From Methanocella paludicola SANAE (lineage in GTDB: Archaea; Halobacteriota; Methanocellia; Methanocellales; Methanocellaceae), in assembly GCF_000011005.1 (NCBI RefSeq), contig NC_013665.1, positions 1,899,501 through 1,963,500 on the forward strand: a DNA stretch of 64,000 nucleotides, read 5' to 3'. Within the stretch, counting starts at the first letter, position 1, and each line of letters opens with the position of its first letter. The position numbers and the translations under genes are program-made. Positions 2,355 to 5,018 of this stretch are shown piece by piece. Below the pieces are notes generated by a model. That model had not been told where the DNA came from and searched no databases. It saw only the letters and a list, made by a program, of their open reading frames with translations.

Positions 2355-3320
2355 TTAATGGCTAAATCGCCCGTTCGACCGTACGGCAAAAAAGGCCCAG
2401 CCATCGTAGATGTCGTTCTTATTCCGGTTGTCGATAACGGCGCCGCGTATGCCCATTTCCTCGAGCGCGGCCGCCAGGAAGTCCATCTCTTCCTTCGTAT
2501 TCACCGTGAATAGCAGGAACCCGTCGTCTTTTAGCGTTTTCACCGCTTCCTCGAAGATCATACGCCAGATATTTTTGTTGAACTCGTAGATGGTCCCGAG
2601 CATGAGCCCGAGCACGGCATCGTACTTTTCGCCTACGAACCTCGTCAGGGCCATGGCATCCACGACCATCGCGCTCTCGGGGTCGAGTGTGCCGTGGTAG
2701 ACGCCGTTACAAATGGCGCACCGGTCGTTGTCGATGCAGAGTATATCCTTGAACAGCGGCTTTATCGCGGCCGTGGACATGCCGTTGCCGCAGCATATCT
2801 CCAGCGCGCTCATCTCTTTGAGGTTGAACCCGTTCTCCTTTGCCAGCCGCTGCATGAGCACACGGAGCCGCTCGTTACGCCCTTCATTAAAAGCAAATGA
2901 CTTTGGCTCCCGCCCCTTGTCGCACTCGCACAGCGCCTGCTCGGCAAGGCTTACGGCCAGGTACTCCCGGAGCGCCTTTCGAAACTGGCCGGGGTCGACC
3001 TTTTTCTTCCTGACCGACGACACGATACCGCCGCCCAAAACGGCGTTCACGAGCTTTTCGGCCTGCTGCCTTGACGCCTTTGCCGCCGGGTACGGTATGA
3101 CGAACCAGAAGTCGCCACCATCCAATTTATTCTTAAAGGCAGCGCCGATCGCCGACCCGCCCTTATCGACGATCGTAAGAGCTGAATCGATGGAGCCTGC
3201 CGGCAGCATGCTCAGCTTATCGAGGTAGTCCAGCGTCCGGAGGTTCATCTCGAGGCCCTCGAAGCTGCCTTCGACGAGGTACGCGTCCTCTTTTAAGCCC
3301 AGCGTCTTTTGCAGGAGCAT
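2355..3320 (-). CDS. SAM-dependent methyltransferase domain protein
   Basis: A 321-residue protein with a class I methyltransferase fold in its C-terminal half. The SAM-binding glycine-rich loop is LEICCGNGMS (about residue 183), followed by an acidic strand end ILCIDND and a motif VVDAMAL that would contact the adenine. The N-terminal 170 residues match no domain I recognise. The frame stays open upstream, but that part lies antisense to the divergent regulator gene, so the ATG at 3320 is preferred. No clear SD is present, while a TATA-like tract at about 3370-3385 points to a short leader. The substrate is unknown. It shares a 90-bp divergent promoter region with the regulator at 3411. Confidence 0.75.
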   Translation of the reverse strand: MLLQKTLGLKEDAYLVEGSFEGLEMNLRTLDYLDKLSMLPAGSIDSALTIVDKGGSAIGAAFKNKLDGGDFWFVIPYPAAKASRQQAEKLVNAVLGGGIVSSVRKKKVDPGQFRKALREYLAVSLAEQALCECDKGREPKSFAFNEGRNERLRVLMQRLAKENGFNLKEMSALEICCGNGMSTAAIKPLFKDILCIDNDRCAICNGVYHGTLDPESAMVVDAMALTRFVGEKYDAVLGLMLGTIYEFNKNIWRMIFEEAVKTLKDDGFLLFTVNTKEEMDFLAAALEEMGIRGAVIDNRNKNDIYDGWAFFAVRSNGRFSH

Positions 3321-3410: not shown

Positions 3411-3989
3411 ATGGACGAGGAGCCCGGGCAGCAAAAGGTCAGGAAGATCAGCATTTCCCTGTCGAACGACGTGCTCGACTGGGTCCTGAAGGAAAAGGGC
3501 GACCTCAAGGTGTCCACGTTCATCAACCAGGTCCTGAGGAACGCCATGGAGCGCCGGAGGGAAAGCGACGTGAGGGAGGAATTCGCCATACTGGAGCACC
3601 GGCTGAAAAAGCTCGAGGAGGACATCCACGACCTGCGGGCGGTGCGCAGCCTGAACGCCGGCAAGCTCGGCCGGTCCGAACACGTTTCCATACTCTCCAC
3701 GAGGCCGAAGGACGTTTTCGGCGAGCTCGTGCACATCAAGAACGTCTCGGCGAAGAACGCCACCGCAGTCCAGGAAGAGCTCATACGGTTCATGAGGGGC
3801 CGCGAGTATATCGACAGGCCCATAGTGCTCAAGGAATTATTCCCTAATACGGGCTCCAGCATCACGAACGACATCAACTACTGGTATAACGCCTGCCGCG
3901 GCGTCCTGGACAGACTCATCGAAGAAGGCTTCGTCGTACGCCTCGGTAAGAATAAGTACAGGTGGATCGGCGACAGGAAGCACGATTAA
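3411..3989 (+). CDS. Putative DNA-binding regulator (N-terminal RHH-like, coiled coil, C-terminal winged helix)
   Basis: A 192-residue protein. Residues 8-45 (KVRKISISLSNDVLDWV, then a helix with TFINQVLRNAM) resemble a ribbon-helix-helix or similar small DNA-binding fold. Residues 55-80 form a charged coiled coil (EHRLKKLEEDIHDL), and residues 115-188 look like a winged helix ending GFVVRLGKNKYRWIG. This layout suggests a dimeric transcription factor. It is divergent from the methyltransferase gene, with 90 bp between start codons, so it may control that gene and itself. The family assignment is inferred from pattern only. The ATG at 3411 has no SD and follows AT-rich DNA, consistent with a leaderless mRNA. 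Confidence 0.7.
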   Translation: MDEEPGQQKVRKISISLSNDVLDWVLKEKGDLKVSTFINQVLRNAMERRRESDVREEFAILEHRLKKLEEDIHDLRAVRSLNAGKLGRSEHVSILSTRPKDVFGELVHIKNVSAKNATAVQEELIRFMRGREYIDRPIVLKELFPNTGSSITNDINYWYNACRGVLDRLIEEGFVVRLGKNKYRWIGDRKHD

Positions 3990-4039: not shown

Positions 4040-4054
4040 AATATTAAATATAAA
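4040..4054 (+). promoter_or_regulatory. TATA box for the 4073-4194 RNA candidate
   Basis: The tract around TTAAATATAAA (4044-4054), preceded by AACAAAT, matches an archaeal TATA box with a BRE-like purine stretch. The usual spacing of about 25 bp places transcription start at 4071-4076, exactly where the terminal stem of the RNA candidate begins. Confidence 0.55.
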
Positions 4055-4072
4055 TGTGTAATGAGGATATAT

Positions 4073-4194
4073 TGAGGACGCAATACTCAGGCCGTATGCG
4101 GGCGCTGCGCGCTTCGTGAGCGGTTTGACCCCTCAAGGGCCTCAAAACCCGGCGGGGAACACCCGAGTCAAATCCGGTGTACTTTGCGCCCTCA
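4073..4194 (+). ncRNA. Unassigned structured RNA candidate, about 122 nt
   Basis: No protein-coding frame fits this GC-rich block, which sits in AT-rich surroundings. Its ends pair: 4073-4083 (TGAGGACGCAA) with 4184-4194 (TTGCGCCCTCA), ten pairs with a single A-C mismatch. Inside lie a long hairpin (GGTTTGA-CCC at 4122-4131 against GGG-CC-TCAAAACC ending 4149), a hairpin CGGG-GAACA-CCCG at 4154-4166, and a possible CGCT-TCGTG-AGCG hairpin near 4110-4122. A TATA box lies 25 bp upstream. The GC-rich island, closing stem and own promoter together indicate a stable RNA. It does not fit tRNA, 5S, SRP or RNase P RNA and I cannot name a riboswitch class for it. Confidence 0.6.
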
Positions 4195-4274
4195 CTATTC
4201 TATACAGCCCTACTCATAACGTGCCGCTATTTTATATAATATTATTTTCATATTATCGAGTGTAAGCCCCCGGA

Positions 4275-5018
4275 GTGATACTTATCAAGATAGGCGCTAT
4301 GGCAGACCTGCATTTCGGACCCGACTCGTTAAAGACGTACTCGTCATTGTTCAAGTCCGCAGGCGCCGAAGCAGATATCATTATCTTATGCGGCGACCTT
4401 ACGATGCGGGGGCTTGTCGAGGAAGCCAGGGGCCTGGTGGAAGCGATGGGCATCGCGGACGTCCCCATAGTCAGCGTGCTCGGTAACCATGACCACGAGG
4501 CCAACAACCAGGAAGAGATCATGGACGTCCTCGAGGATGCGGGCGTTAAAGTTCTCGAGCGGGGCTCGTTCATCATGCCGGACCGCTCGGTCGGCGTCTG
4601 CGGCACCAAAGGCTTTTGCGGGGGCTTCGCTCCGGCCAGGATAGCACCCTTCGGCGAGCGCATCCTGAAGATGTTCATCAACGAGACATACAAGGAAGCG
4701 AACAAGGTGAACCGGTCCCTGAAAAGCATGAAGGCCGGCTTCAAGGTCGTTGCGTACCATTACGCGCCGGTACGGGATACGTGTATCGGCGAGCGCTGCG
4801 AGATCATACCGTTCCTGGGCTCGTCCATTTTATCGGACCCGGTCGATACTTTCCGGGCTGACCTGGTATTGCATGGCCATTCCCATAACGGCAGTGAAAA
4901 GGGCTCGACACTTAAAGGCGTGCCCGTCCGTAACGTGGCCCTGCACATCCACGACCGCCACTACTGCATTTACGATACCGGCTCCTTCAGCCCATCCGCC
5001 TCAGAAGCGTCGAAATGA
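4275..5018 (+). CDS. Calcineurin-like metallophosphoesterase
   Basis: A 247-residue protein with the complete set of binuclear-metal phosphoesterase motifs: D-x-H in MADLHFG near residue 10, GDLT near residue 39, GNHD near residue 72, a mid-chain histidine in YHYAP and GHSH near residue 203. It should hydrolyse a phosphomonoester or phosphodiester in the cytoplasm; the substrate is unknown. The GTG at 4275 is used here, but an ATG at 4299 starting MADLHFG is possible. The 3' end overlaps the convergent nucleotidyltransferase gene by 32 bp. Confidence 0.88.
   Translation: MILIKIGAMADLHFGPDSLKTYSSLFKSAGAEADIIILCGDLTMRGLVEEARGLVEAMGIADVPIVSVLGNHDHEANNQEEIMDVLEDAGVKVLERGSFIMPDRSVGVCGTKGFCGGFAPARIAPFGERILKMFINETYKEANKVNRSLKSMKAGFKVVAYHYAPVRDTCIGERCEIIPFLGSSILSDPVDTFRADLVLHGHSHNGSEKGSTLKGVPVRNVALHIHDRHYCIYDTGSFSPSASEASK

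Follow-up and report, generated by a model that had tools for sequence, protein, structure and literature searches.

A predicted structured RNA gene of Methanocellaceae that keeps little of its sequence

The locus and predicted fold in Methanocella paludicola

The stretch of DNA analysed (the window; 64,000 nucleotides, positions 1899501-1963500 of the M. paludicola contig, called G000 in comparisons with the other three genomes of the order, G001, G002 and G003) carries a predicted structured RNA gene between a gene for a 192-aa protein and a phosphoesterase gene. The features of the locus are, in window positions:

2355-3320, minus strand: divergent SAM-dependent methyltransferase-like gene (Pfam Methyltransf_25/23 matches weak and below the cut-offs; orthologues in four of four genomes of the order)
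3411-3989, plus strand: upstream neighbour of the RNA, a 192-aa protein tentatively read as ribbon-helix-helix, coil and winged helix (low-confidence model)
4045-4056, plus strand: TATA-like block, presumed promoter of the RNA, starting 28 bases before the closing stem; a like distance is seen in four of four genomes
4073-4194, plus strand: predicted structured noncoding RNA gene of 122 nt (fold z -3.42; positional counterparts in G001, G002 and G003; covariation in the closing stem)
4073-4083, plus strand: 5' arm of the closing stem P1, UGAGGACGCAA
4184-4194, plus strand: 3' arm of P1, UUGCGCCCUCA; a blind scan of the spacer ranks the stem of these two arms first among long-range stems
4087-4128, plus strand: arm P2, a long hairpin (MFE and centroid structures)
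4129-4157, plus strand: arm P3, CCCC...GGGG with inner GGG/CCC (MFE structure)
4159-4180, plus strand: arm P4, ACACC...GGUGU (MFE structure)
4230-4240, plus strand: TATA-like block 3' of the RNA, judged from sequence to belong to the phosphoesterase gene itself
4275-5018, plus strand: downstream phosphoesterase gene (Pfam Metallophos; orthologues without the RNA in three of three relatives)

Folded on the plus strand, the sequence at 4073-4194 had an MFE of -55.2 kcal/mol, which none of 200 dinucleotide shuffles equalled, and the coordinates given in the original prediction were right. The opposite strand formed a weaker fold (-50.3, z -1.54, equalled by 13 of 200 shuffles). A repetition with 300 shuffles gave z -3.22, two of the shuffles folding as well. 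In a coarse sliding scan (fixed 120-nt windows, 30 shuffles per window), z reached no more than -1.6 to -2.0 at this place. The closing stem had been described as ten pairs with one mismatch and indeed consists of ten standard pairs and one A-C mismatch (UGAGGACGCAA/UUGCGCCCUCA), while the strong internal hairpins correspond to three arms, present inside the closing stem in 300 of 300 sampled structures (rounded). The TATA box proposed upstream is matched by the TATA-like block 24-31 bases ahead of the RNA, with the A/T block AAATATTAAATATAAAT at -34 to -18 relative to the first paired base.

No ORF of at least 60 aa was found within the element, in agreement with the earlier claim that it lacks a coding frame, yet one frame per strand is stop-free over all 122 nt. 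The longest stop-free stretches inside the four RNAs compared below were 32-45 aa with differing peptides, hence there is no conserved reading frame. Taken alone, the M. paludicola fold is suggestive evidence for an RNA; it is the comparison with the relatives that makes the case convincing.

The 192-aa protein (RHH protein below) had no Pfam match, and its AlphaFold model has a mean pLDDT of 60. The succession of a ribbon-helix-helix, a coil and a winged helix is our own reading and should be taken as putative.

Counterparts and gene order in related genomes

A like element adjoins the methyltransferase orthologue in four of four genomes of the order, these being all the Methanocellaceae examined. 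The counterparts are:

G001, L045:2170-2280: 3' of the RHH orthologue on the same strand; GC-rich block with a long closing stem
G002, L046:2196-2332: 3' of the RHH orthologue on the same strand; GC-rich block with a long closing stem
G003, L052:1360-1243, minus strand: same place by the methyltransferase, without the RHH gene; ten-pair closing stem

An A/T block precedes P1 in all four genomes, running from -34 or -35 to between -23 and -16 in three of them and from -41 to -18 in G001. The RHH/winged-helix gene stands directly upstream of the RNA in G000, G001 and G002, the orthologues of G001 and G002 being 65% and 51% identical to the M. paludicola protein, and is absent from G003. Among 392 genomes of the phylum, the protein was found in three, all Methanocellaceae, each with an additional distant N-terminal match to a paralogue; none was found in viral contigs and plasmids. 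An element belonging to this gene, either bound or controlled by the protein or folded at the 3' end of its mRNA, would fit the position directly 3' of the gene on the same strand in three genomes and the restriction of the protein, like that of the RNA, to Methanocellaceae. It is unlikely nonetheless, given the G003 RNA that stands without the gene and the A/T block lying at promoter distance before the RNA in all four genomes.

The next gene on the same strand after the RNA encodes an aldehyde dehydrogenase (Pfam Aldedh) in G001, G002 and G003, the first two proteins being 60% and 71% identical to that of G003. In G000 the phosphoesterase gene follows instead. A cis-acting leader of the downstream gene (aldehyde dehydrogenase in three genomes, phosphoesterase in G000) is suggested by this same-strand succession but would have to bridge gaps of 788 (G001), 134 (G002) and 230 (G003) bases, the largest of which contains repeats. 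Moreover, the linkage is not conserved: the downstream gene of G000 is a different one, preceded by a separate TATA-like block, and no aldehyde dehydrogenase match was present within the window. A leader role is therefore improbable. The more specific idea of the original prediction, a riboswitch-like element serving the phosphoesterase gene, was not supported. The phosphoesterase orthologues of G001, G002 and G003 (60-69% identity) have a divergent FKBP gene upstream in three of three cases and no RNA element there, the RNA stays beside the methyltransferase/RHH pair, and the TATA-like block at 4230-4240 intervenes. What stood was the other half of that proposal, a predicted small structured RNA with its own putative promoter.

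Since the RNA persists both where the RHH gene is missing (G003) and where the downstream gene differs (G000), it is best regarded as a gene of its own and not as a leader of either. The ancestral order was probably the divergent methyltransferase gene, the RHH gene, the RNA and the aldehyde dehydrogenase gene.

Some further structures were seen around these loci. In G001, the gap that separates the RNA from the aldehyde dehydrogenase gene holds blocks of approximately 40-nt repeats in both orientations (L071:7570-7990). In G002, a long palindrome, GTACAGAGTTTGTACA...TGTACAAACTCTGTAC, follows the RNA closely, ahead of the aldehyde dehydrogenase gene (L046:2360-2402), and is perhaps an operator. 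The surroundings of the RHH/winged-helix paralogues, checked in three genomes, held one candidate beside a single paralogue of G002 (L084:700-820), where an 18-pair perfect hairpin sits inside a longer stem and the stretch folds with z values of -9.7 on one strand and -7.9 on the other; it was rejected as a long perfect hairpin and not the RNA element.

Covariation, shared fold and sequence divergence

When each spacer was scanned for its best long-range stem, P1 was picked in four of four genomes. Shuffled spacers equalled or beat its score in 30 (G000), 0 (G001), 102 (G002) and 5 (G003) of 150 cases; the score is exceptional in G001 and G003 only, not in G000 or G002. Within a nine-pair register, six of the nine pairs carried double-sided changes across the four genomes and none a one-sided change, and 34 of 36 cells were paired (94.4%, compared with 37.5-56.3% in slid registers), although some bias towards pairing is built into this count because the register was picked by hand from the folds. 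Covariation in relatives had been set beforehand as the test of the prediction, and it was present here as well as in the fold shared by G001 and G003.

This shared fold was accessible from a single sequence, as a covariance model built from the G003 RNA alone found the G001 RNA with 28.7 bits (E 1.3e-5 in 34.5 kb). In a structure-fitted alignment of the common three-arm fold, 16 of 36 pairs were changed on both sides and 97.1% of 69 cells paired; the unconstrained fold of the G001 RNA gave the same closing stem and three arms. Models of this fold reached the G000 RNA at chance level only (8.5 bits, E 2.1) and did not recover the G002 RNA as a whole. The arms of G000 and G002 are therefore not demonstrably homologous to these, and the link is made by place, P1 and promoter spacing. 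In G002, three arms occurred in just 34% of the ensemble samples. Three arms are also not rare by chance, as 35-52 of 150 shuffled interiors gave three, and the arm lengths vary between the species.

The strand preference was evaluated with and without the closing stem. The full RNAs (300 shuffles each) gave z values on the called strand of -3.22 (G000), -9.26 (G001), -3.83 (G002) and -4.19 (G003), and on the other strand of -1.53, -3.86, -4.27 and -2.30, respectively. Without P1, the called and other strands gave -2.16 and +0.68 in G000, -5.85 and -0.70 in G001, -2.06 and -2.16 in G002, and -1.57 and +0.14 in G003. The interior thus folds better on the called strand in three of the four, with G002 even, which fits the expectation for an RNA. 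G-U pairs made up 18 of the 168 pairs over the four MFE folds. These data bear on the idea that P1 is not an RNA stem but a pair of DNA sites in inverted orientation, used by a regulator or recombinase. The similarity of the P1 arms in three species (GGGAG...) around a weakly conserved interior would agree with such sites, but the strand asymmetry in three of four interiors (G002 being of no help), the G-U pairs and the arms covarying between G001 and G003 speak against them, leaving this explanation quite improbable.

In primary sequence, the four RNAs have diverged almost beyond recognition. Their global alignments were near the shuffled level (z -0.5 to 3.2), and the MAFFT alignment was unusable beyond the ends. 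For comparison, the RNase P and SRP RNAs of the same genomes had an identity of 0.81-0.90 over aligned bases with z of 28.6-40.4. Even G002 and G003, which belong to one genus, were no closer in their RNA than other pairs (z 0.9), and no conserved loop sequence was seen among the four. There is, accordingly, no strongly conserved core as in riboswitches, which further weakens the case for a leader. Overall, the sequence comparison supports the predicted element together with its position and closing stem; in two species the support extends to the entire fold. By this comparison, a putative RNA gene of about 110-140 nt is present in every Methanocellaceae genome examined (n = 4).

Likely nature and range of the RNA

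No family reached the gathering level of Rfam in the whole window. At E values up to 10, the sole overlap with any of the four RNAs was a partial, AT-rich match to snR57 (E 0.51), which is taken for chance. The claim that the element is not a tRNA, 5S, SRP or RNase P RNA was upheld: Rfam gave no match, and the RNase P and SRP RNAs are located elsewhere in four of four genomes. With its closing stem and three arms, the RNA resembles tRNA-like cloverleaf RNAs but differs from them in that neither ARAGORN nor Rfam called a tRNA on the G000 RNA, the arm lengths depend on the species and no T-loop is kept among them. In a family library, the general class of guide RNAs is not well represented. A known archaeal class (a guide, Y-like or tRNA-like RNA) that drifted below detection would be compatible with this poor coverage and with the rapid sequence change; it is nevertheless very improbable, considering the lack of any Rfam family apart from the snR57 overlap, the placement of the RNase P and SRP RNAs, the absence of a TROVE/Ro60 protein from four of four genomes (the control search was positive in Deinobacterium chartae) and of an ACA directly after P1, as judged by eye in the four downstream flanks.

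In the M. paludicola genome paper, untranslated genes were sought by four tools, among them Rfam, tRNAscan-SE and ARAGORN, and in the available part of its text no mention of this locus was seen (PMC3146512). The papers retrieved in searches for a Methanocella RNA, judged by titles and the beginnings of abstracts, name no such RNA. The element is real and, as far as Rfam 15 and this portion of the literature show, undescribed.

The element is best explained, with moderate confidence, as a stand-alone, structured, probably trans-acting noncoding RNA specific to the family. We infer its transcription, a protein contact at P1 and its action in trans, for which the following course can be proposed. 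Transcription would start at P1 or close to it, about 25-30 bases past the TATA-like block, and the transcript would fold so that a long stem joins both ends with three arms at the junction. Besides perhaps shielding the ends, the stem is probably what a protein recognises, and the RNA might act in trans in a regulatory or scaffolding role, like archaeal intergenic sRNAs. Pairing of the RNA with the starts of neighbouring genes was not above that with shuffled targets (10 tests in four genomes, z -1.22 to 1.19).

According to a review, sRNA154 of Methanosarcina mazei is highly conserved within Methanosarcina and its loops base-pair with mRNAs (PMC5867862). The Methanocellaceae RNA is similar to it in being a stand-alone intergenic gene with a presumed promoter of its own, a stable predicted fold and a narrow taxonomic range, but its loops are not conserved. 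Because sRNA154 keeps its sequence within Methanosarcina and the present RNA does not within its own family, a role read from the shape appears as likely as pairing with mRNAs. An RNA family acting almost only by shape, with a covarying end stem read by a lineage-specific protein and arms free or driven to change, would be new but is rather unlikely; if true, the rapid change would fit a decoy RNA or one engaged in conflict with an invader. The RNA also resembles the candidate structured RNAs obtained by comparative genomics (PMC2864571), which are likewise recognised through covariation and place, and differs from them in matching no Rfam model; no word starting with "Methano" occurs in the main text of that paper.

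The RNA is thus ordinary in kind and unusual in how little of its sequence is kept. If expressed, it would be a noncoding RNA untraceable by sequence search even within a genus and revealed by gene order and structure, which suggests that lineage-specific structured archaeal RNAs may often be missed. The locus offers a well-defined object for tests in a rice-field methanogen that is in culture.

The 122-nt query found only itself at full length in the DNA of 60 relatives, apart from short chance matches (best E 0.0024 over 22 bases), and the plasmid records searched gave three short chance matches. Across the four whole genomes, the single-sequence covariance models R1 and R2 (the latter from G003) each returned the self-match only. 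Searched against 392 genomes of the phylum, model R3, from G001 and G003, recovered both of its parents plus one match in G361, whose E of 0.006 per genome is about chance level over 392. The methyltransferase had matches in 53 genomes, 49 of them outside the order. In 11 of the 16 loci from these outside genomes (L054-L064), a folding scan with 15 shuffles per window did not recognise the RNA element; several windows with z < -4 were found in AT-rich DNA. The methyltransferase orthologue adjoins a chromatin protein gene across lineages, namely MC1 in Methanocella (window:1645-3320) and a histone elsewhere (L054:2985-3191). The histone gene lies on the divergent side of the methyltransferase in five loci, which we take to be from Methanosarcina-like genomes, and was recognised by Pfam in L054 and by eye in the other four.
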